Assembly (NCBI RefSeq): GCF_014641735.1 | Contig: NZ_BMIH01000003.1 | Span: 496,001-560,000, forward strand | DNA length: 64,000 nt | Direction: 5' to 3' | From: Sphingomonas metalli | GTDB lineage: Bacteria; Pseudomonadota; Alphaproteobacteria; Sphingomonadales; Sphingomonadaceae | Shown here: one piece after another, positions 2,920 through 11,076 of the stretch | Layout: each line of letters starts with the position of its first letter | How positions within the stretch are numbered: position 1 is the first letter of the stretch | The notes under the pieces: generated by a model | What the model saw: only the letters and a program-made list of their open reading frames with translations | Databases searched by the model: none | What the model was told of the DNA's origin: nothing | Position numbers and translations under genes: made by a program

Positions 2920-3014
2920 GTCACCCCGGACCTGTTCCGGGGTCCACGGCGCCGCACACTCGATCGCCTGATCCTTGGCGGCCCCGTGGATGCCGGGACA
3001 AGCCCGGCATGACG
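2920..3014. repeat. Double-hairpin palindromic repeat (REP-like)
   Basis: Two inverted half-elements face each other between yciB and sodB. The left arm (2920-2950) contains CACCCCGGACCTGTTCCGGG and the right arm (about 2985-3014) contains CCGGGACAAGCCCGGCATGA. Each arm folds into its own hairpin, and the arms also pair with each other over roughly 30 bases with several mismatches. Dispersed elements of this type are frequent between sphingomonad genes. Copy number cannot be judged here: no second copy of this subtype was noticed in the window. Confidence 0.7.
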
Positions 3015-3035
3015 GAGCTGTAATAGCTTAGACGT

Positions 3036-3066
3036 AAAATAAGGGGCGGACCGTTCGACCCGCCCC
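3036..3066 (-). terminator. Rho-independent terminator of sodB
   Basis: Read on the minus strand, a 7-bp GC stem (arms 3060-3066 and 3043-3049, GGGGCGG/CCGCCCC) is followed by TTATTTTA. It lies 11 bases past the sodB stop and fits an intrinsic terminator. Confidence 0.72.
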
Positions 3067-3076
3067 CCTCCACCTC

Positions 3077-3688
3077 TTACTTAGCGACCGCGTCGTAGCG
3101 CTGGCCGACCGTGTCCCAGTCGACCACATCCCACCACGCCTTCAGATAGGCGGCGCGGTCGTTCTTGTAGGTGAGGTAATAGGCGTGTTCCCACACGTCA
3201 TTGCCGAGCAGCGGCGTGCCGCGCTCCTGCACCACGTCCATCAGCGGGTTGTCCTGGTTCGGGGTCGACGTGACCTTCAGCTTGCCCGACTCGTCGGCGA
3301 TCAGCCACGCCCAGCCCGAGCCGAACTGGCCCGCGCCCTTGGTGTTGAACTCGTCCTTCAGCTTCTCGAGGCCGCCGAAATCGCGCTCGATCGCCTCGGC
3401 GAGCTTGCCCGAGGGCTGACCGCCACCGGCCTTCATCGACTTCCAGAAGAAGTCGTGGTTCCAATAGCCGCCACCATTGTTGCGGACCAGCGGCGGCTGC
3501 GACGAGATGTTCGAGAGGATTTCCTCGATCGTCTTGCCCTGCAGCGACGGGTCCTTCTCGACGCCCTCGTTCAGCTTGTCGGTATAGGCCTTGTGATGCT
3601 TGTCGTGGTGGAACGTCATCGTCTCCTTGGAGATCGTCGGCTCCAGCGCGTCATAATCATAGGGCAGCGGGGGCAGTTCGAAAGCCAT
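3077..3688 (-). CDS. sodB: Superoxide dismutase, Fe/Mn family
   Basis: Disproportionates superoxide; 203 residues, no signal peptide, so cytoplasmic. Metal ligands are H27, H78, D164 and H168 (DVWEHAYYL). The residues that usually separate the metal types point to manganese: the Fe-type Gln position four before the second His is Gly (G74 in GGGYWNH), and a Gln is present at the Mn-type position (Q145 in TPNQDNPLM). Annotators commonly call such alphaproteobacterial proteins SodB, so the symbol does not imply iron. It stands alone, with its own terminator. Confidence 0.95.
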   Translation of the reverse strand: MAFELPPLPYDYDALEPTISKETMTFHHDKHHKAYTDKLNEGVEKDPSLQGKTIEEILSNISSQPPLVRNNGGGYWNHDFFWKSMKAGGGQPSGKLAEAIERDFGGLEKLKDEFNTKGAGQFGSGWAWLIADESGKLKVTSTPNQDNPLMDVVQERGTPLLGNDVWEHAYYLTYKNDRAAYLKAWWDVVDWDTVGQRYDAVAK

Positions 3689-3754
3689 GGGGCATCTCCT
3701 AATGGGGTCGCGCGGAGAAACGCGCGCCGACCCCGATTGGTCCAGCCGCCCGCG

Positions 3755-4798
3755 TTACGCAACCGTTCCGATCAGGTCGTGCCGCCGCAACGCGTGGCGC
3801 AGCTGATCGTAGGACAGGCCCAGCGCCTCCGCGGTATGCCGCTGGTTGAAGCGATGCTCGGCCAGGCTCCTGGCCAGCAGCTCCCGCTCGAAGCGCGCGA
3901 CGCGCGACTTGAAGTCCGACGGGCCCACCTCGCAGGCCGCGACCTCGTCATGGTCGTCGCCCGCCGCCGGTTCCGGTGCCTCCGGCTGGGCTGCACGGGC
4001 GGCAGCGGGAGACTGGGCCTGCGGACGATAGGGGGAGGCGAAGGGGTCGATCTCGATCCGGTCGATCGGCCCACCCTCTTCCCAGCGGTACACGGCCCGC
4101 TCGACGACGTTGCGCAGCTCGCGGACGTTGCCGGGCCAGCGATAGCCGGTCAGTGCCTCGACGGCATTGGGCCCGAAGCCGTACCAGCGATCGCGCCCGA
4201 GTTCGGCGGCCATGCGGCGGCCGAAATGGTCGGCGAGGATCGGGATGTCGCCCTTGCGGCTGCGCAGCGGCGGCAGCGTCACCACCTCGAAGGACAGCCG
4301 GTCGAGCAGGTCGGCGCGGAATTCGTGCCGGTCGACCTTGTCGGGCAGATGCTCGTTGGTCGCCGCGACGATACGGACGTCGACGCGCACCGGGCGCGAC
4401 GAGCCGATCCGGGTGATCTCGCCATATTCGACCGCCCGCAAAAGGCGCTCCTGCGCGCCCATCGACAGGGTGCCGAGCTCGTCGAGGAACAGCGTGCCGC
4501 CGTCCGCCTCCTCGAAACGGCCGGTGCGCGCCTTGGTCGCGCCGGTGAAGGCGCCCGCCTCGTGGCCGAAAAGCTCCGCCTCGATCAGCGTCTCGGGCAG
4601 GGCGGCGCAGTTCATCACCACTAGGGGCTGATCCCAGCGCGGGGACAGGCGGTGGAGTCGCTCGGCGACGAGTTCCTTGCCCGTCCCGCGCTCGCCGATG
4701 ACGAGGACGGGACGGTCCAGCGCGGCGGCGCGACTGGCGCGTTCGAGGGCATCCAGGAACGCCCCCGACTGACCGATAACCTGGCTCGTCCGTTCCAT
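3755..4798 (-). CDS. pspF: Sigma-54 activator PspF of the phage-shock response
   Basis: Enhancer-binding AAA+ protein that opens sigma-54 promoters. At 347 residues it has no N-terminal receiver, as expected for PspF, which is held off by PspA instead. Visible are the Walker A GERGTGKE, the sigma-54-contacting GAFTGA loop, Walker B-like LFLDELG and an R-finger region, then a Pro/Ala-rich linker (about 255-290) and a Fis-type helix-turn-helix near 320-340 (RHTAEALGLSYDQLRHAL). The start is the ATG at 4798 (MERTSQVIGQ); 50 upstream codons run into the promoter region. It is divergent from pspA, the standard arrangement. Confidence 0.93.
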   Translation of the reverse strand: MERTSQVIGQSGAFLDALERASRAAALDRPVLVIGERGTGKELVAERLHRLSPRWDQPLVVMNCAALPETLIEAELFGHEAGAFTGATKARTGRFEEADGGTLFLDELGTLSMGAQERLLRAVEYGEITRIGSSRPVRVDVRIVAATNEHLPDKVDRHEFRADLLDRLSFEVVTLPPLRSRKGDIPILADHFGRRMAAELGRDRWYGFGPNAVEALTGYRWPGNVRELRNVVERAVYRWEEGGPIDRIEIDPFASPYRPQAQSPAAARAAQPEAPEPAAGDDHDEVAACEVGPSDFKSRVARFERELLARSLAEHRFNQRHTAEALGLSYDQLRHALRRHDLIGTVA

Positions 4799-4859
4799 TC
4801 CCAAGGATTGGCGCAAAATCCCAATGTTGCGCAAGCCGCCAATCGATCGCAGCGACCAT

Positions 4860-4881
4860 TTTCCGTCGAATAGCACGGAAA
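4860..4881. promoter_or_regulatory. Inverted repeat between pspF and the psp promoter
   Basis: Perfect 7-base arms TTTCCGT (4860-4866) and ACGGAAA (4875-4881) separated by 8 bases, about 20 bases upstream of the -24 element. It could be an activator (PspF or IHF-assisted) or repressor site. It is closer to the promoter than typical enhancer sites, so the role is open. Confidence 0.35.
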
Positions 4882-4898
4882 TCCGCCATTTCCGGCAC

Positions 4899-4915
4899 TT
4901 GGCACGCACCGTGCA
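4899..4915 (+). promoter_or_regulatory. Sigma-54 (-24/-12) promoter of the psp operon
   Basis: TTGGCACG at 4899-4906 and TGCA at 4912-4915 match the RpoN consensus TGGCACG-N4-TTGC, with the invariant GG (4901-4902) and GC (4913-4914) ten bases apart. It faces the small ORF at 4966 and pspA, with pspF divergent behind it. The expected start of transcription is near 4926. Confidence 0.88.
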
Positions 4916-4965
4916 AAGCCTTGGACATACCGCCACGGCGGACAACAAGGATCACGGAGGAAATC

Positions 4966-5109
4966 ATGTTCAAGGATCTCGCCACCAAGTTCGCCGCCCT
5001 CGCCCTGACCGTCGTCACCAGCGCCACGCTGGTCATCGGCGCGGTCGGACCGGCGCAGGCGGGTGCGGGCAAGACCGCAGTCGCCATGGCGACCCGGATC
5101 GTGGCATAG
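4966..5109 (+). CDS. 47-residue secreted or membrane peptide leading the psp operon
   Basis: Not a recognised family. A strong Shine-Dalgarno GGAGG (4956-4960) sits 5 bases before the ATG. The peptide begins MFKDLATK, continues with a hydrophobic stretch (about 10-27) and ends a signal-peptide-like part with GPAQA, after which only about 15 residues remain (GAGKTAVAMATRIVA). It is the first gene after the sigma-54 promoter and lies 37 bases before pspA, so it should be induced with the phage-shock genes. It may be a secreted peptide, a membrane-inserted peptide or a leader that tunes pspA translation. Confidence 0.68.
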   Translation: MFKDLATKFAALALTVVTSATLVIGAVGPAQAGAGKTAVAMATRIVA

Positions 5110-5146
5110 TCGCATGGACATCGCTTCCGCCCCTCAGGAGTTCATG

Positions 5147-5818
5147 ATGGGAATCTTCAGCCGAACCCGCGACATCGTCGCCGCCAATTTCGCCGATCTG
5201 CTCGACAAGGCAGAAGACCCGGCGAAGATGATCCGGATGATCATCCTCGAAATGGAGGAGACCCTGGTCGAGGTCCGGGCCTCGGCGGCGCGGACCATCG
5301 CCGACCAGAAGGAGATGCGCCGGCACATCGCCAAGCTGGAGCAGCTTCAGACGAGCTGGACCGAGAAGGCGGAGCTGGCGCTGTCGAAGGATCGCGAGGA
5401 TCTGGCCAAGGCCGCGCTGGTCGAGCGGCAGAAGGCGACCGACATGGCGGACCAGCTGACCGCCGAGGTACAGGTGCTCGACGACGCGCTGCGCGCTTCG
5501 GAGGAGGACATCGCCAAGTTGCAGGCCCGCCTGCGCGAGGCGCGCAACAAGCAGTCCAACATCCAGACCCGCATCGAGAGCGCGAACAACCGCTATCGCC
5601 TGCGCGACATGTACGCCGGGCCGAAAACGCAGGAAGCGTTCAGCCGCTTCGGCGAACTGGAACGCCGGGCCGACGAGGCGGAGGGCCGCGCGGAAGCGCT
5701 GGGCCTGGGCGTCACCAAGTCGCTGGAGGACGAGATCGCCGAGCTGCGGCAGAGCGATCGGGTCGACGCCGAACTGGCCGCGCTGAAGGCGCGCCTGTCC
5801 GGCAAGACGGAGGGCTGA
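5147..5818 (+). CDS. pspA: Phage-shock protein PspA
   Basis: Peripheral inner-membrane, ESCRT-III-like coiled-coil protein that inhibits PspF and, under stress, binds damaged membrane. The 223-residue protein starts MGIFSRTRDIVAANF with the amphipathic helix, then is helical throughout with long heptad-rich segments (about 25-145) and the conserved region around AEDPAKMIRMII. CAGGAG at 5135-5140 sets ATG 5147 rather than the ATG one codon earlier. It is the main effector of the operon. Confidence 0.95.
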   Translation: MGIFSRTRDIVAANFADLLDKAEDPAKMIRMIILEMEETLVEVRASAARTIADQKEMRRHIAKLEQLQTSWTEKAELALSKDREDLAKAALVERQKATDMADQLTAEVQVLDDALRASEEDIAKLQARLREARNKQSNIQTRIESANNRYRLRDMYAGPKTQEAFSRFGELERRADEAEGRAEALGLGVTKSLEDEIAELRQSDRVDAELAALKARLSGKTEG

Positions 5819-5822
5819 TCCG

Positions 5823-6107
5823 ATGGAAGACGTGCTGGTTCCGATCGGGGTCGTCGGCATGCTGTTCATCGGCCTGCCCTGGATCGTCCTTCACTATGTC
5901 ACCAAGTGGCGCGCCGCTCCGAAGATCACCGAGGAGGACGAGCGGATGCTGGACGAGATGTACAATCTCGCCCGCCGCCTGGAGGATCGCCTCAACACCG
6001 TCGAGCGGATCGTCGCCGCCGACAATCCCGACTGGCGCCCCGGGCTGAACGCCCCGCAGACGCCGACCCAATACAGCCTCGACCGCACCCATAGCCGGAG
6101 CAACTGA
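5823..6107 (+). CDS. pspB: Phage-shock protein PspB
   Basis: Small inner-membrane protein that senses envelope stress with PspC and releases PspF from PspA. It is 94 residues, with an N-terminal membrane segment (about 6-27) and a cytoplasmic coiled coil (about 36-65). The C-terminal motif VERIVAADNPDWRPG corresponds to the LESILDAEHPNW end of E. coli PspB; about 20 extra hydrophilic residues follow. It begins 4 bases after the pspA stop. Confidence 0.9.
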   Translation: MEDVLVPIGVVGMLFIGLPWIVLHYVTKWRAAPKITEEDERMLDEMYNLARRLEDRLNTVERIVAADNPDWRPGLNAPQTPTQYSLDRTHSRSN

Positions 6108-6108
6108 G

Positions 6109-6489
6109 ATGGCCGCCCGCACACAATTCTACCTCAACAAGCAGGATGCCCAGTGGAAGGGCGTCTGCGCCGGGATCTCCGACTATACCGGGATCGACGT
6201 CCTCTGGGTCCGACTGGCGGCCGTGCTGCTGACGGTCACCGGCGCTGGCTTTCCCTGGGTGCCGATCAGCTACTTCGTGATCGCCTATTTCGCCAAGACC
6301 AAGCCGATCGGCCTCTACCAGTCCGACGAGGACCAGAAATTCTGGCAGGGCGTGCGCACCAATCCGAAGCGCTCGACCGCCGAGGTCCGCTCCAAGCTGC
6401 GCGACATCGACCGCCGGTTGGCCGACATGGAAACCCACTTCACCAGCCGCAACACCGCGCTGGCTGACGAGATCGACGCGCTGCGCTGA
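6109..6489 (+). CDS. pspC: Phage-shock protein PspC
   Basis: Inner-membrane stress sensor of 126 residues. The PspC domain occupies about 8-65 (WKGVCAGISDYTGID, then two hydrophobic stretches ending YFVIAYFAKTKPIG). A charged coiled coil follows and ends METHFTSRNTALADEIDALR, comparable to the MERYVTSDTFTL end of E. coli PspC. The last residues (EIDALR) recur at the ends of the small proteins encoded next. It starts one base after pspB. Confidence 0.92.
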   Translation: MAARTQFYLNKQDAQWKGVCAGISDYTGIDVLWVRLAAVLLTVTGAGFPWVPISYFVIAYFAKTKPIGLYQSDEDQKFWQGVRTNPKRSTAEVRSKLRDIDRRLADMETHFTSRNTALADEIDALR

Positions 6490-6524
6490 ATCCGCGCCGT
6501 CCAACAGAACAGGGGAGACGAACG

Positions 6525-6809
6525 ATGAGCTGGGGAGGACCGGGTTTCGTCATCGCGATCATCGCGATCTCGACCTTCGGCATTGTCATCAACAACTGGA
6601 TCCGGACCCGGCACGGCTATGCGCCGACCGACAACCGGGGCGGCCAGGACGCCGGTCCCGATGCGGACCGCAAGATCCGGCTACTGACCACCGACAATGA
6701 GAAGCTCGCCGGGCAGGTCGGCCGGCTGGAGGAGCGGATCGCGGTGCTGGAACGCATCGTCACCGACCCCGCCCACCGCACCGCCCGCGAAATCGACAGC
6801 CTGCGCTGA
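6525..6809 (+). CDS. Psp-associated membrane/coiled-coil protein 1
   Basis: Unnamed 94-residue protein. One membrane segment (about 7-26, FVIAIIAISTFGIVINNWI) is followed by a short polar linker and a coiled coil (about 52-94) ending AVLERIVTDPAHRTAREIDSLR. The tail matches those of PspC and the next three proteins. The shared architecture and position after pspC, 35 bases away with GGGGAGACGA before the start, suggest a duplicated PspB/PspC-like partner. A Psp function is inferred from context only. Confidence 0.8.
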   Translation: MSWGGPGFVIAIIAISTFGIVINNWIRTRHGYAPTDNRGGQDAGPDADRKIRLLTTDNEKLAGQVGRLEERIAVLERIVTDPAHRTAREIDSLR

Positions 6810-6832
6810 CGGGCCGACGAAGGAGATCTGGA

Positions 6833-7159
6833 ATGAACCCGGACACACTCGAAATCATCCGCATGCTGTTCCCGCTGATCGCGGTCATCATGCTCTTCGC
6901 GGTCGGCGGCTGGGTGCTGACGACCTGGATGCGGATCAAGAACGGCTATCCGCTCGACGGCGCCTGGGGCCAGGCCATCTACCCCCGCAAGGACGAGGAG
7001 TCGGTCGAACGGATCAAGCTCCTCAGCCAGGAGAACGCCCAGCTGCGGGCCGAACTCGGCTCGGTCAAGGACCGACTGGCCAATGTCGAGCGCATCGTCA
7101 CCGATGGCGGCACCCTGCTGAGCCACGAGATCGATCGCCTGCGCACCGCGTCGAACTGA
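6833..7159 (+). CDS. Psp-associated membrane/coiled-coil protein 2
   Basis: Unnamed 108-residue protein, the longest of the five. The membrane segment is about 9-33 (MLFPLIAVIMLFAVGGWVLTTW), then WMRIKNGYPLDGAW and a coiled coil from about 58, ending VERIVTDGGTLLSHEIDRLR plus TASN. The RIKNGYPLDG stretch resembles RTRHGYAP in protein 1, which supports duplication. AAGGAGAT lies just before the start. Likely part of the psp transcript. Confidence 0.8.
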   Translation: MNPDTLEIIRMLFPLIAVIMLFAVGGWVLTTWMRIKNGYPLDGAWGQAIYPRKDEESVERIKLLSQENAQLRAELGSVKDRLANVERIVTDGGTLLSHEIDRLRTASN

Positions 7160-7170
7160 GGAGCCGGATC

Positions 7171-7461
7171 ATGGACAAGCCCCTTTTCGTCATCGCCTTC
7201 TTCATGATCGTCGTGGGACTGCCGATCATCCTCGGCGTGGGCGGCGACATGTTCAAGCGCTGGCTGAAGCACAAGGAGACGATGTCGGCGGCGCTCAACG
7301 CGCAGACCGCGGAACGGGCGGCGCAATATGCCGCCCAGACCGAGCGGCTGGAGCAGAGGGTGCGGGTGCTGGAGCGGATCGTGACCGACCGTGGGCATGA
7401 CCTTTCCCAGGAAATCGAGCGACTGCGCGGCGACGAGCCATCGACGCCGCGGATCAACTGA
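7171..7461 (+). CDS. Psp-associated membrane/coiled-coil protein 3
   Basis: Unnamed 96-residue protein. The membrane segment is about 5-25 (LFVIAFFMIVVGLPIILGVGG), followed by a basic patch (MFKRWLKHKE) and a Gln/Ala-rich coiled coil. The motif VLERIVTDRGHDLSQEIERLR sits at about 67-87, then nine polar residues. The ATG at 7171, preceded by GAGGAG, is chosen; a longer reading from 6697 would overlap protein 2. It starts 11 bases after the previous stop. Confidence 0.78.
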   Translation: MDKPLFVIAFFMIVVGLPIILGVGGDMFKRWLKHKETMSAALNAQTAERAAQYAAQTERLEQRVRVLERIVTDRGHDLSQEIERLRGDEPSTPRIN

Positions 7462-7495
7462 CAAATATAACAACACATAGAGGGAGTTATAACCG

Positions 7496-7738
7496 ATGGG
7501 CCCGTTCTCGATGGTCGTCATGATCGTGCTGATCGTGACGATCGGGAAGGTGCTGGCACCGCGCTACAGGATGCGCGGCATGCAGCAGGACTATCACCTC
7601 CAGCATGCCGAGGCGCAGCGCGCGCAGGACGAGATCCGCCAGCTCAAGGAGCGGGTCGCGGTGCTGGAACGTGTCGTGACCGACAATCATGGCAGCATCG
7701 ACCTCGATCGCGAGATCGAGCGGCTGCGCGACCGCTGA
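7496..7738 (+). CDS. Psp-associated membrane/coiled-coil protein 4
   Basis: Unnamed 80-residue protein. The membrane segment is about 3-20 (FSMVVMIVLIVTIGKVLA), then basic residues (RYRMRG) and a coiled coil ending VLERVVTDNHGSIDLDREIERLRDR. The motif spacer is a little longer than in its neighbours. The 34-base gap in front is unusually A/T-rich for this region (AAATATAACAACACATAG), and GAGGGAG acts as the ribosome site. It may have its own regulation. Confidence 0.78.
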   Translation: MGPFSMVVMIVLIVTIGKVLAPRYRMRGMQQDYHLQHAEAQRAQDEIRQLKERVAVLERVVTDNHGSIDLDREIERLRDR

Positions 7739-7752
7739 AAGGAGGCGGCAAA

Positions 7753-7986
7753 ATGACCGATCCCTTCGTTACCGTCACCCTCTCGCTATCGGGTCTCGCC
7801 GGACTGGCGATGGTCGTCACCGGCGGCCTTGCCGGCTGGCGCGGCTGGCTCCAGCTCAAGCGCACCGAGCTGGACCGGGTCTCGACCGGCAATGCCGGCG
7901 CCCCCGCCGGCGCCCGCATCGAGATCGCCGACCTCAAGGAGCGCATCCGCAAGCTGGAGGCGATCGCCGCCGGGGTGGAGCTGTAG
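7753..7986 (+). CDS. Psp-associated membrane/coiled-coil protein 5 (degenerate tail)
   Basis: Unnamed 77-residue protein with a membrane segment at about 9-30 (LSLSGLAGLAMVVTGGLAGWRGW), a linker, and a short coiled coil (ADLKERIRKLEAIAAGVEL). It keeps the LKERI-x-x-LE start of the shared motif but lacks the VTD and EI-x-x-LR parts, so it looks truncated or diverged. AAAGGAGG (7738-7745) is its ribosome site. It is the last gene of the array. Confidence 0.72.
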   Translation: MTDPFVTVTLSLSGLAGLAMVVTGGLAGWRGWLQLKRTELDRVSTGNAGAPAGARIEIADLKERIRKLEAIAAGVEL

Positions 7987-8035
7987 GTACCGGGGCATTG
8001 CTCCCCCCCGCCCCAGCCTGTACCGCCGCCGCGCA

Positions 8036-8440
8036 ATGCAGAGCCTGGACGATATCCGCGAGGAATATGACTTCCTCGATCCCGACGACCGCTACCGCCT
8101 GCTGATCGATCTCGGCCGCGCGCTGGAGCCGATGCCGGAGGCGCTGAAGACCGAGGCGACGCTGGTGCGCGGCTGCTCCGCCTCGGTATGGGTCTATCCG
8201 ACCCGCGCGGCGGACGGCACGCTCCACTTCCTCGCCGACTCGAACGCCGCGATCACCAAGGGTATCATCGCGCTGGTGCTGCATGCGGTGCAGGATCGGA
8301 CCGCGGCGGCGATACTGGCGACGGATGTGGCGGCAGCGCTGCAGCCCTTCGACCTGTCGCGCCAGCTCAGTTCCAACCGTACGCAGGGTATTCCGAACAT
8401 GATCGCGCTGATCCGGGAAACCGCGGCGCGTTACGCATAG
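8036..8440 (+). CDS. sufE: SufE-family sulfur acceptor
   Basis: Accepts persulfide sulfur from a cysteine desulfurase for Fe-S cluster assembly. The 134-residue protein begins MQSLDDIREEYDFLD; the sulfur-accepting Cys is C47 in LVRGCSASVWV, matching the GC-x-S-x-VW motif of SufE. The ATG at 8036 is chosen because it starts at the family's usual N-terminus. It is close to the psp array but separated by about 50 bases, and is convergent with the ferredoxin gene. Its desulfurase partner is not adjacent; two NifS/IscS-like genes lie at 29-31 kb. Confidence 0.92.
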   Translation: MQSLDDIREEYDFLDPDDRYRLLIDLGRALEPMPEALKTEATLVRGCSASVWVYPTRAADGTLHFLADSNAAITKGIIALVLHAVQDRTAAAILATDVAAALQPFDLSRQLSSNRTQGIPNMIALIRETAARYA

Positions 8441-8478
8441 GCCAAAGGGCACTACCGCTCGGATTGCCGGCCGGGGAT

Positions 8479-8784
8479 TTACTCAGCCGGCCCGATCCCC
8501 AGTTGCACGGCCAATGCCTCGATCGGCTCGCCCGGCGGCACGACCAGCCACTCGGCCGGGCGGCGGCTGTCCACGACCGTCACCGCATGTTTCGGGCAAA
8601 GCTTCAGGCATCGCGTCTCGACCACGCCGACACGCGCCTTCCGTCCCTTCCCGGACATGCGTCGCAGCGCCTTGACGAGGGTCTGATCCTCGTCCGGGCC
8701 AAAGCTGCGCCCGACCTTCCTGGAGCATTTGCCGCAGACCAGCACGACGTTGGCCCAGCCGCTCTTCTTCGCGATGCGGGTCAC
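8479..8784 (-). CDS. Thioredoxin-like [2Fe-2S] ferredoxin domain protein
   Basis: A 101-residue protein with four cysteines, C17, C20, C59 and C63, in the order CGKCSRK then TRCLKLCPKHAVTVV. The second pair (CxxxC followed by PxxAV) fits thioredoxin-like ferredoxins; the first pair is closer together (CxxC) than the usual C-x(10-12)-C, so cluster binding is likely but not certain. Its start overlaps the J-domain gene's stop by 4 bases, making a two-gene unit that converges on sufE. No redox partner can be named. Confidence 0.75.
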   Translation of the reverse strand: MTRIAKKSGWANVVLVCGKCSRKVGRSFGPDEDQTLVKALRRMSGKGRKARVGVVETRCLKLCPKHAVTVVDSRRPAEWLVVPPGEPIEALAVQLGIGPAE

Positions 8785-9311
8785 GCCGCCCGCCGCTCCT
8801 CGGCGGCGCGCAGCACCTCATAGGCGGCCTGCACCGCCTGGAATTTCACTGCCGCATCGGGATCGTTCGGCCGCACGTCCGGATGATTTTCCTTGGCAAG
8901 CCGCCGCCATGCCATCCGCACCGCCTCGAAGTCGGCATCCACGTCCAGCCCCAATGCGGTCAGCGCCCGCTGTTCGTCGCGCGAGCGGGTGCCGTCGCCG
9001 GAGCCTCCCCAGGCATAGTGGCGCGCCTGTTCATAGCCCCGCGCGCCGCGCGACTCGTCCGCCTCGCGCGCCGCCGCCTCTTCGGCGGACAGGCCCTGAA
9101 AATAGTCCCAGCCGCGATTATACTCGGCGGCGTGGTCCTGGCAGAAATACCAGCGATCGGGATTGTTGGGGGATTTCGGTGCCGGGCAGTCGCCGGGGCG
9201 ACCGCAGCCGTCGCGATCGCAGAGCCGCACGGGCTTCGCCTCGCGCCCCGAGCCATAGCCTCGCCAGCGGGGGAAACCCCAGTCGTTCGAACGTGTCGGC
9301 CGGTACGCCAT
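8781..9311 (-). CDS. J-domain protein with Cys-rich N-terminus
   Basis: Probable DnaK co-chaperone of 176 residues. The J-domain is C-terminal (about 118-176), with the HPD tripeptide in KENHPDVRPNDP, the reverse of the DnaJ order. The N-terminal half has a cysteine/histidine cluster (RLCDRDGCGRPGDC, then WYFCQDH), suggesting a metal site. The ATG at 9311 (MAYRPTRSND) is preferred; 40 further upstream codons look non-coding. Coupled to the ferredoxin gene, so a role in Fe-S protein handling is possible but inferred. Confidence 0.85.
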   Translation of the reverse strand: MAYRPTRSNDWGFPRWRGYGSGREAKPVRLCDRDGCGRPGDCPAPKSPNNPDRWYFCQDHAAEYNRGWDYFQGLSAEEAAAREADESRGARGYEQARHYAWGGSGDGTRSRDEQRALTALGLDVDADFEAVRMAWRRLAKENHPDVRPNDPDAAVKFQAVQAAYEVLRAAEERRAA

Positions 9312-9495
9312 CGCTCCCGACATAAGCCGAGACACGCGTCGCGCAACTGCTCCGCTCGACCCGGACGAACCGGAAGCGATCTGCGTAACGCCCGCACGAC
9401 ACCTCTTTTCTTCGCACGCTGAACATGACACTTACGTCATCTAATCTTCATGGCCGGTTCGGTACGATGAAGCGAATCGAGCATAGGAGCCGCGT

Positions 9496-11076
9496 TTGAC
9501 CGCCCAACGATCGTTCCTCTCCAGCGCCCGGGCGGACATTCCCGCCTCGATCGTGGTCGCGCTGGTCGCGCTCCCCCTGTGCCTGGGCGTGGCCCTGGCG
9601 TCGGGCGCGCCGCTCTTCTCGGGGATCATCGCGGGCGTGGTCGGCGGCATCGTCGTCGGCAGCCTGTCGAAATCGCCGCTGTCGGTCAGCGGCCCCGCGG
9701 CCGGTCTGACGGTCATCGTCCTCGCCGCCATCGAAAGCCTGCCGACCTTCCAGGCCTTCACGCTGGCGGTGATGCTCGCCGGCGTGTTGCAGCTCGCCTT
9801 CTCCTTCACCCGCGCCGGCATCCTGGCCGAGTTCGTGCCCTCCTCCGTCATCACCGGCATGCTGGCCGCGATCGGGCTGATCCTGATCCTGAAGCAGATC
9901 CCGCATGCGGTCGGCTATGACGCCGAGGCGGAGGGGATATTCGAGTTCTCGACGGCCGACGGGCTCAACACGCTGACCCGGTTGACCGAGAGCGTCTCGG
10001 GCCGCCTCACGCCGGGCGCGGTGCTGATCGCCGCCATCAGCCTCGTCTTCCTCTTCTGGTGGGATCATGCGCGCCCCAAACAGGGGCCGCTGCGCTTCCT
10101 TCCCGGCCCGTTGGTCGTGGTGGTGATCGGGGTGGTCGGCAACATGCTGCTCGGCGTCGTCCGCCCGGACTGGCAGCTGACCGCCAAGCACCTCGTTCAG
10201 GTGCCGATCGCGGGGGCCCCGAGCGAGTTCGTCAAGCTCTTCTCGCTGCCCGACTTCAGCGCGATCGGCATGGGTGCGGTGTGGAGCACGGCGGTGACGC
10301 TGGCGATCGTCGCGAGCCTCGAGTCGCTGCTGTCGGTCAAGGCGATCGACGAGATCGATCCGAAGCGCCGCACGACCGACAAGAACTGGGAGCTGATGGC
10401 GCAGGGCGGCGGCAATATCGTGTCGGGGCTGATCGGGGGCCTGCCCGTCACCTCGGTGATCGTCCGCTCGTCCGCCAATGTCGACTCCGGCGCGGACAGC
10501 AAGCTGTCGACGATCCTCCACGGCATCTGGCTGCTCGTCTCGGTCGCGCTGATCCCGGCGGTGCTCAACATGATCCCCCTGTCGGCGCTGGCCGCCGTGC
10601 TAATCGCGACCGGCTACAAGCTCACCAAGCCCAAGCTGTTCGCCGAGCGCTTCAAGCAGGGCTGGTCGCAGTTCGTGCCGCTGGTCGCGACCGTCGTCGC
10701 GATCCTGTTCACCGACCTGCTCGAAGGGATCATGATCGGCATGGCGGTCGGCTTCGTCTTCGTCATCGCGCGCAACTTCCGCACCGCGATCACCGTGGCG
10801 CATGCCGGCGACGACTGGCTGGTCCGGGCCCGCCGCAACCTCTACTTTATCCACAAGTACGAATTGCAGAAGAGCCTGGTGAAGGTGCCCGACGGGGCGA
10901 ACCTGATGATTGACCTCACCTCGACCAACTTCGTCGATCTCGACAATGTCGACATCATCAACGCCTTCATCAAGAACGCCGCGTTCCGCGACATCCGCGT
11001 CATCCTGCGCGGCGACATCGCCGAGAAGACGGCCCCCAAGATCAACGCCCCTCTCGCCGAGGTCCGCTACGCATGA
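9496..11076 (+). CDS. SulP-family anion transporter, probably bicarbonate
   Basis: Inner-membrane transporter of 526 residues with about ten or more hydrophobic segments and a C-terminal cytoplasmic STAS-like domain (about 440-526, LMIDLTSTNFVDLDNVDI). The N-terminal signature around ADIPASIVVALVALPLCLGVALASG is typical of SulP. The start is a TTG at 9496 with AGGAG 6 bases upstream; no ATG lies nearby. The 4-base overlap with a carbonic anhydrase gene points to bicarbonate rather than sulfate as substrate, an inference from context. Confidence 0.88.
   Translation: MTAQRSFLSSARADIPASIVVALVALPLCLGVALASGAPLFSGIIAGVVGGIVVGSLSKSPLSVSGPAAGLTVIVLAAIESLPTFQAFTLAVMLAGVLQLAFSFTRAGILAEFVPSSVITGMLAAIGLILILKQIPHAVGYDAEAEGIFEFSTADGLNTLTRLTESVSGRLTPGAVLIAAISLVFLFWWDHARPKQGPLRFLPGPLVVVVIGVVGNMLLGVVRPDWQLTAKHLVQVPIAGAPSEFVKLFSLPDFSAIGMGAVWSTAVTLAIVASLESLLSVKAIDEIDPKRRTTDKNWELMAQGGGNIVSGLIGGLPVTSVIVRSSANVDSGADSKLSTILHGIWLLVSVALIPAVLNMIPLSALAAVLIATGYKLTKPKLFAERFKQGWSQFVPLVATVVAILFTDLLEGIMIGMAVGFVFVIARNFRTAITVAHAGDDWLVRARRNLYFIHKYELQKSLVKVPDGANLMIDLTSTNFVDLDNVDIINAFIKNAAFRDIRVILRGDIAEKTAPKINAPLAEVRYA

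Follow-up and report, generated by a model that had tools for sequence, protein, structure and literature searches.

The psp locus of Sphingomonas metalli carries, behind pspABC, a row of five small genes (g1 to g5), and a tandem array of this kind is restricted to the psp locus of a single family, in which it is nearly always present. We analyzed a window of 64,000 nucleotides, positions 496001 to 560000 of contig NZ_BMIH01000003.1, from a genome of ~3.86 Mb. Psp is a textbook response to membrane stress and has mostly been studied with one PspB and one PspC. The family of the window nearly always holds several more PspB/PspC-like proteins under selection, with g5 always last, and the sequence data suggest that sphingomonads may have rebuilt a well-known stress response. 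A sequence-only reading of the window had described five tandem genes after pspABC, each with a membrane helix and a coiled coil, and all five open reading frames (ORFs) proved to be real and to lie in tandem on the plus strand. The array is a natural experiment on the control of PspA by PspB/PspC tails. Tractable species are available in which to test it, among them Zymomonas mobilis, which provides the single-gene case with its one array gene.

To follow the array beyond the window, we read 141 psp loci: the window, the 80 best PspA matches of at least 543, and 60 loci from further genomes of the order. Because the 80 loci are best matches, the sample leans towards Sphingomonas. Five loci are duplicates, leaving 136 distinct ones, of which 116 belong to the GTDB family of the window (f1; sphingomonads according to the titles of its loci) and 20 to other families; loci from the PspA search were assigned to f1 by title, and a few titles of metagenome-assembled genomes reach order or class level. 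We also searched 296 genomes of the order, 213 of them in f1, with f2 to f8 denoting the other families; psp linkage was read in the fetched loci rather than genome-wide. Array genes were assigned to the types g1 to g5 by best profile, and the groups used for profiles exclude members at ≤60 bits and identical sequences.

Every distinct f1 locus (116/116) holds at least one array gene and 111 hold three or more, the array sizes being one (2 loci), two (3), three (11), four (52), five (37), six (10), and eight (1). The types g1 to g5 occur in 96, 66, 96, 98, and 113 of these loci, respectively, and g5 stands last in all 113 loci that have it. At the genome level, g5 was detected in 204 and PspA in 212 of the 213 f1 genomes. 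Six of the nine genomes without g5 hold other array members (G053, G155, G186, G233, G238, and G241), two show other members in their loci (G146, locus L111; G201, locus L118), and G266 has neither PspA nor the array. Checked across the order, as the sequence-only reading had proposed, the array is nearly universal in f1, present alongside PspA in 212/213 genomes and absent together with it from one (concordance, 213/213). Gene order is partly conserved: g1-g3-g4-g5 (27 of the 141 loci) and g1-g2-g3-g4-g5 (23) are the most frequent rows, and in other genera g3-like genes may lead the row, or g2 may sit between them. In 102 of 121 loci (a count that takes in five duplicates; locus L051 ends at a contig end), a sufE-like gene follows the array within 400 nt. 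Of 17 of the 20 non-f1 loci (the short loci L084, L088, and L094 were excluded), four have it 178 to 437 nt past pspC, and eight have it within 5.5 kb. As the sufE-like gene stands close behind pspC in some non-f1 loci, the array fills the interval between pspC and sufE. The g1-g4 profile had no match outside the array in the window's own genome. Locus L111 has pspC and three array genes, with PspB and g5 undetected at the thresholds applied.

All five array groups are under purifying selection. The median ratios of nonsynonymous to synonymous substitution rates (dN/dS) in close pairs are 0.35, 0.34, 0.35, 0.44, and 0.32 for g1 to g5, next to 0.19 for pspA, 0.36 for pspB, and 0.30 for pspC; a ratio of ≥1 was reached by g4 in one of 100 pairs. 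The pairs were filtered for equal pspB length, dS of 0.15 to 0.9, aligned identity of ≥45%, and a length difference of ≤25 residues, which favors conserved pairs. The fifth gene had been called degenerate in the sequence-only reading, a description contradicted by its distribution and dN/dS and by its C-terminal third, which has the highest conservation of the five groups (3.87 bits). It is highly improbable, and we disfavor the idea, that the tandem copies have been kept by drift with little added function. Variation in copy number, in the middle members, and in their order would fit such neutral proliferation; selection acts on all five groups, however, g5 is near-universal and always last, and the only f1 genome without the array also lacks PspA.

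The array proteins share a common build. A strong hydrophobic stretch near the N terminus (Kyte-Doolittle [KD] value of ≥1.6) was found in 471 of 486 deduplicated proteins from the five groups, and 482 of the 486 are richer in lysine and arginine just after this stretch than before it. By this excess, the N terminus is predicted to be outside and the C terminus inside, so that the coiled coil, whose heptads were read by eye, would be cytoplasmic. The C-terminal third is the most conserved part of g1, g3, g4, and g5 and is level with the middle third in g2 (3.40 versus 3.45 bits); in every group, conservation is lower in the N-terminal than in the C-terminal third. The working part of these proteins is likely to be the conserved tail more than the membrane helix. 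The sequence-only reading had instead proposed a multisubunit stress sensor or oligomerization module whose membrane segments each sense a different state. In a multi-input sensor of this kind, every array protein would detect its own membrane state by way of its helix and pass the signal on to PspC. Such a sensor would be served by paralogue-specific N-terminal halves, and within groups the g1 membrane segment and the g2 postmembrane linker are indeed conserved; g2 and g5 also form separate clades (see below). We nevertheless consider it unlikely, as conservation is lower at the N-terminal end, no helix is linked to a stimulus, and the number of "senses" would vary widely, from one array gene in Zymomonas to eight in one locus.

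We then compared the array with PspB and PspC. Profile-profile P values among g1 to g4 range from 2.4e-15 to 2.2e-30, and g5 matches g3 at 2.3e-7, g4 at 1.3e-7, g1 at 1.3e-4, and g2 at 4.7e-4. Against PspB, the best P values for g1 to g5 are 4.1e-8, 1.6e-5, 4.2e-9, 1.6e-9, and 3.7e-3; against the f1 PspC tail, they are 8.8e-7, 5.7e-8, 3.4e-6, 2.4e-6, and 0.15; and against PspC tails from outside f1, they are 6.1e-4, 9.1e-5, 1.4e-3, 1.9e-4, and 0.03. The alignment with the f1 PspC tail spans 36 to 41 columns for g1 to g4, and g5 does not align. PspB and PspC profiles match each other directly at best at 6.7e-4. A PspB-free array profile, A1, gave 44 weak matches (1e-10 < E < 1e-3) in 80 non-f1 genomes of the order, of which 43 (42 genomes) lie on PspA's contig and strand, 57 to 833 nt behind PspA; 42 of these lie at 57 to 318 nt, and the remaining one, at 833 nt, is the PspB duplicate of L090. 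The slot directly behind PspA is the PspB position in the loci read. The earlier claim of a duplicated family that is kin to PspB and PspC and tied to pspABC is borne out by these values. By profile evidence, g1 to g4 are clear paralogues, relatives of PspB and of the PspC tail that fall below curated cutoffs.

Likeness and difference can be traced in detail. The array proteins resemble PspB (PF06667/TIGR02976) in size, in the N-terminal membrane helix, in a C-in coiled coil with LExIV/VERIV, and in their place in the psp operon; they differ from it in scoring under both cutoffs, with a true PspB present in the same operon, and the EIxxLR ending of g1 to g4, which is PspC-like, is missing from the window's PspB. 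With the PspC tail (TIGR02978), g1 to g4 share the heptads and the ending E..V/I-T-D/S ... EIxxLR, whereas the array proteins have no PspC domain and carry the tail on a membrane helix of their own, as separate genes. The tail that the sequence-only reading saw in four of the proteins does end in EIxxLR in g1 to g4, with spacers of 7, 7, 7, and 9 residues, but g2 reads VERIVTD, not LERIVTD; as that reading also stated, EIDALR closes the window's PspC and VERIVAAD is present in its PspB. PspB is longer at its C terminus in f1 (median, 94 amino acids [aa]; 115 sequences) than in the other families of the order (76 aa; 17 sequences).

Several results count against this kinship. All five proteins fall below the curated cutoffs: PF06667 gives 11.9 to 15.6 bits on g1, g3, and g4 (cutoff, 25.6) and TIGR02976 gives 15.7 to 17.0 bits (cutoff, 51.7), neither matches g2 or g5, TIGR02978 gives at most 20.1 bits on array proteins (cutoff, 104), and the PspC domain PF04024 has no match in g1 to g5. 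A heptad-block-shuffled PspB still reaches 7.6e-8 against g3 (for the f8 genes, 6.8e-7 shuffled versus 5.3e-7 real), and g5, at best at 3.7e-3, has no direct match to PspB or PspC. In a tree of the array genes of 23 of the 141 loci and the PspB of seven (three from other loci), g1, g3, and g4 are not single clades, and the seven PspB rows nest in g1 (support, 95/85) on a long branch (1.78), a placement that we do not read as descent. The tree has 103 rows, few columns (101), and many unresolved forks, and solitary homologues are not included; g2 (99/88) and g5 (100/99) each form one clade, and its seven labels need nine changes (minimum, six; shuffled mean, 66).

The question raised by these results is whether the array is a separate family that resembles PspB and PspC through heptads and the LERIV motif only. 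We regard such convergence as distinctly unlikely, even though subthreshold curated scores, the block-shuffled PspB control, and the unmatched g5 are what it would predict. Control membrane/coiled-coil families of the same genus, FtsB and LapA, match the array groups at best at 1.1e-3, and the kinship of g1 to g4 is therefore not due to chance. Reversed PspB and PspC profiles reach 3.3e-4 at best. The match of g2 to the PspC tail (5.7e-8) is stronger than that to the block-shuffled tail (1.3e-5, the best for that shuffle, also with g2) or the reversed tail (3.4e-4), and 43 of the 44 weak whole-genome matches sit directly behind PspA. The heptad-block shuffle leaves 7-residue motifs intact and is a poor null; the shuffle controls indicate that the PspB match is largely one short motif and that the PspC-tail match is more than one motif. 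The coiled coil and tail of the array proteins are thus kin to the PspC C-terminal tail and also to PspB, in the latter case more through a single motif.

Profile searches placing the proteins in unrelated families would have refuted the sequence-only reading, and this was not the outcome. Among the subthreshold matches of g1 to g4, no family other than PspB or PspC recurs, although isolated unrelated families score equally well or better (ZapB on g2 and Peptidase_M3_N on g3 have lower Pfam E values), and g5 has only a weak LapA match. Kinship with FtsL, FtsB, LapA, or ZapB was set aside, as all matches are subthreshold and the profile controls, which covered FtsB and LapA, were negative. An independent family with no relation to Psp is disfavored by the profile P values and by the weak matches behind PspA. 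Among solved structures, neither the window's PspB nor its PspC had a Psp-named relative up to an E value of 1, and the array profile matched 18 chains, none Psp-named, the best (E = 0.0013) being a potassium channel.

Outside f1, a strong homologue (E < 1e-10), usually one gene, was found in 56 of 80 genomes of the order (f2, 6/8; f3, 0/1; f4, 0/1; f5, 27/29; f6, 5/7; f7, 2/2; f8, 16/32); three further f4 genomes had no homologue. In 11 genomes, all of f8, the homologue is found no more than 3.5 kb from PspA, and five of these have another copy elsewhere; the remaining non-f1 homologues lie elsewhere in the genome or on another contig. No PspA was detected in two f8 genomes. In related families, then, the homologue is mostly solitary and not close to psp, and f8 has a psp-linked single copy. 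Judging by this distribution, a lone gene may have been copied into the psp operon and then multiplied. The unlinked f8 copy lies 21 to 33 nt behind rpoD on the same strand in 3/3 loci (L236:3996-4268, L237:4012-4284, and L238:4005-4277; Pfam check for two of the three). Of nine f5 loci, read over 8 kb each, six contain an rpoD-like ORF (identified from blast clusters, with Pfam for one), and protease and flagellin genes lie near the homologue in several f5 loci. Class-wide, 15 of 337 genomes match the array profile, five of them in f1. The match in G498 (1.2e-21) comprises two adjacent genes, and a search of 3.2 kb there gave no match to PspA, PspB, or PspC. Seven other genomes match weakly (6.6e-5 to 3e-4), the two that were read (L190 and L191) being PspB. 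G560 and G639, from another alphaproteobacterial family (f21), carry a PspB-like extra gene in the psp locus (L188:1474-1698 and L189:1477-1698), which is a separate, smaller expansion.

The layout of the locus suggests that pspABC and the array form one putative PspF-driven operon. Of the 136 distinct loci, 112 (99 of the 116 in f1) have a sigma54-type element in the 450 nt upstream of pspA, compared with 40 of 920 control windows. The array genes are codirectional and tightly spaced behind this element, with gaps of ≤40 nt in 447 of 502 neighbor pairs from pspC onward. A consensus scan of positions 4800 to 8500 of the window found no sigma70-like promoter and no plus-strand terminator-like site. 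Coexpression of the array with pspABC is supported indirectly, by the compact layout, by the sigma54 element, and by analogy with Zymomonas, in which pspABC and an upstream gene are coinduced: ZMO1062 to ZMO1065 rise in xylose media (PMC8645129). Zymomonas pspABC is also reported to be higher under ethanol (PMC3495753). Locus L118 is Zymomonas mobilis or a near twin, as all six quantitative PCR (qPCR) primers for ZMO1063 to ZMO1065 (PMC3495753) match it with zero mismatches, and it has one g4-like gene after pspC. ZMO1066 was not mentioned in the literature turned up by a search.

What might the array proteins do? As tethered relatives of parts of PspB and the PspC tail, they are most simply read as extra PspC and/or PspA partners, and we give an even chance to their being an old set of membrane-anchored additional partners of the PspB/PspC/PspA system. 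PspF and sigma54 would switch on the whole row together with pspABC, and the proteins would pair with PspB, PspC, and one another via coiled coils and membrane helices and would give the PspC tail and/or PspA additional partners at the membrane. The threshold for the release of PspF from PspA by PspC could be set by the array proteins; alternatively, they could keep PspA at the membrane. Cytoplasmic contacts between PspB and PspC reportedly silence the response, to go by the title of a 2016 paper. In Yersinia, the C-terminal cytoplasmic domain of PspC is described as binding PspA in the on state and so freeing PspF (PMC5596341). In Escherichia coli, PspB self-associates, the PspC leucine zipper is required for contact with PspA, and PspC may have two topologies (PMC3068692).

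A possible though doubtful alternative is that the array proteins are downstream effectors, made only after induction, that protect the membrane themselves in the manner of PspD or PspG and take no part in signaling. The array does lie downstream in the presumed PspF operon, and PspG has been described as contacting PspC in an effector role (PMC3068692); what speaks for regulatory contacts instead is the kinship with PspB and the tail of PspC. The sequence-only reading had credited E. coli with PspB and PspC only, a statement corrected by the pspABCDE operon given in a 2022 survey (PMC9239133). PspD and PspG of E. coli are, by description, likewise small extra Psp proteins (PMC9239133, PMC3068692).

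The partner role has its own difficulties. We infer it from sequence, and the solitary homologues, mostly not near psp, imply that the family can work without psp. Copy number ranges from one to eight, and genera differ in how the middle members are ordered. AlphaFold2 (AF2) models of g4 (one long helix, residues 3 to 79; pLDDT, 78) and g5 (two helices, residues 4 to 46 and 52 to 72; pLDDT, 81) are of single chains and of moderate confidence, and they are uninformative on partners. In E. coli, PspB and PspC were found to touch through membrane regions, and mutation of the PspB leucine zipper leaves binding to PspC intact (PMC3068692), a point against coiled coils being the main contact.

A wider reading, tentative and rather doubtful, joins these elements. 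Sphingomonads would have turned a lone membrane/coiled-coil gene (directly behind rpoD in f8) into a kit linked to Psp that comprises as many as five types of adaptor together with a leader protein (orfX) and, in some sphingomonads, a miniprotein of ~40 aa. Together with PspB and PspC, this kit would form a hetero-oligomeric membrane platform that docks and shapes the polymer of PspA (bacterial ESCRT-III), and the response would be set by what the platform is made of and not by one PspB/PspC switch.

The array has a partial precedent in the literature. In one clause, Ravi et al. (2024) mention "PspB duplicates" in psp operons, with AOL22920.1 as the example (PMC11237479). Like the array, these are extra PspB-type genes in a pspFABC operon; unlike it, they come without count, order, phylogeny, or sequence analysis in the accessible text (PMC11237479). 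Our literature searches, mostly of papers outside subscription, found no account of the array, its spread, or the tail homology. AOL22920.1 is probably an Erythrobacter (sphingomonad) protein, in which case the phenomenon would be the same. The 2022 phyletic survey treats PspA and PspC paralogues, and its main text contains no word starting with "sphingo" (PMC9239133).

Table 1. Features of the psp locus in the window and of related loci (window positions unless a locus is named)
Feature	Position	Strand	Basis or remarks
pspF, divergent sigma54 activator	3755..4798	-	Pfam Sigma54_activat 2.6e-61 and Fis-type HTH
sigma54-type promoter element TGGCACGCACCGTGC	4900..4914	+	one mismatch versus TGGCACG-N4-TTGC
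orfX, hydrophobic leader protein, 47 aa	4966..5109	+	first ORF 3′ of the sigma54 element
pspA	5147..5818	+	TIGR02977, 271 bits, above cutoff
pspB	5823..6107	+	PF06667, 4.7e-26, above cutoff
pspC	6109..6489	+	TIGR02978, 106 bits, above cutoff; PF04024, 6.3e-13
g1, array gene, 94 aa	6525..6809	+	TM (membrane helix) and coiled coil; tail LERIVTD-x7-EIDSLR
g2, array gene, 108 aa	6833..7159	+	TM, conserved GYPLDxxWGxAIYP linker, and coiled coil; tail VERIVTD-x7-EIDRLR
g3, array gene, 96 aa	7171..7461	+	TM and coiled coil; tail LERIVTD-x7-EIERLR
g4, array gene, 80 aa	7496..7738	+	TM and coiled coil; tail LERVVTD-x9-EIERLR; type retained in Zymomonas
g5, array gene, 77 aa	7753..7986	+	TM and short coiled coil, end RIEIADLKERIRKLEAIAAGVEL; final array gene, divergent yet conserved
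sufE-like gene, outside the array	8036..8440	+	PF02657, 3.8e-35; marks the array boundary
Arginine-rich leader ORF	upstream of pspA in L083, L084, L085, L092, L094-L098
Tail-less short PspC-domain protein	L099:1924-2166, L100:2036-2290, L101:2040-2276

An Rfam search of positions 3000 to 9500 of the window gave no match above the gathering score. Homologues of orfX occur in 81 of the 116 distinct f1 loci, in none of the 20 loci of other families, and in none of a reverse-strand control; orfX had no family match in Pfam and TIGR scans. A different conserved leader ORF, of ~57 aa with an arginine-rich end, lies at the corresponding place upstream of pspA in 9 of the 20 non-f1 loci and was found in 0 of 121 f1 loci and 0 times in the reverse-strand control. 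In L118, the ORF before pspA encodes 172 aa with a signal-like start, unlike orfX, and holds, by eye, both ZMO1062 qPCR primers of PMC2651186. A membrane miniprotein of ~40 aa (..ERVDRPRRR..QPAE) is encoded in 23 loci (22 distinct; e.g., L032:9018-9137), mostly between g3 and g4, where it fills a gap of 160 to 240 nt; it was absent from the reverse-strand control and is not among the window's matches. Finally, three f8 loci carry a second, short PspC-domain protein without a tail between pspC and the single array-type gene.

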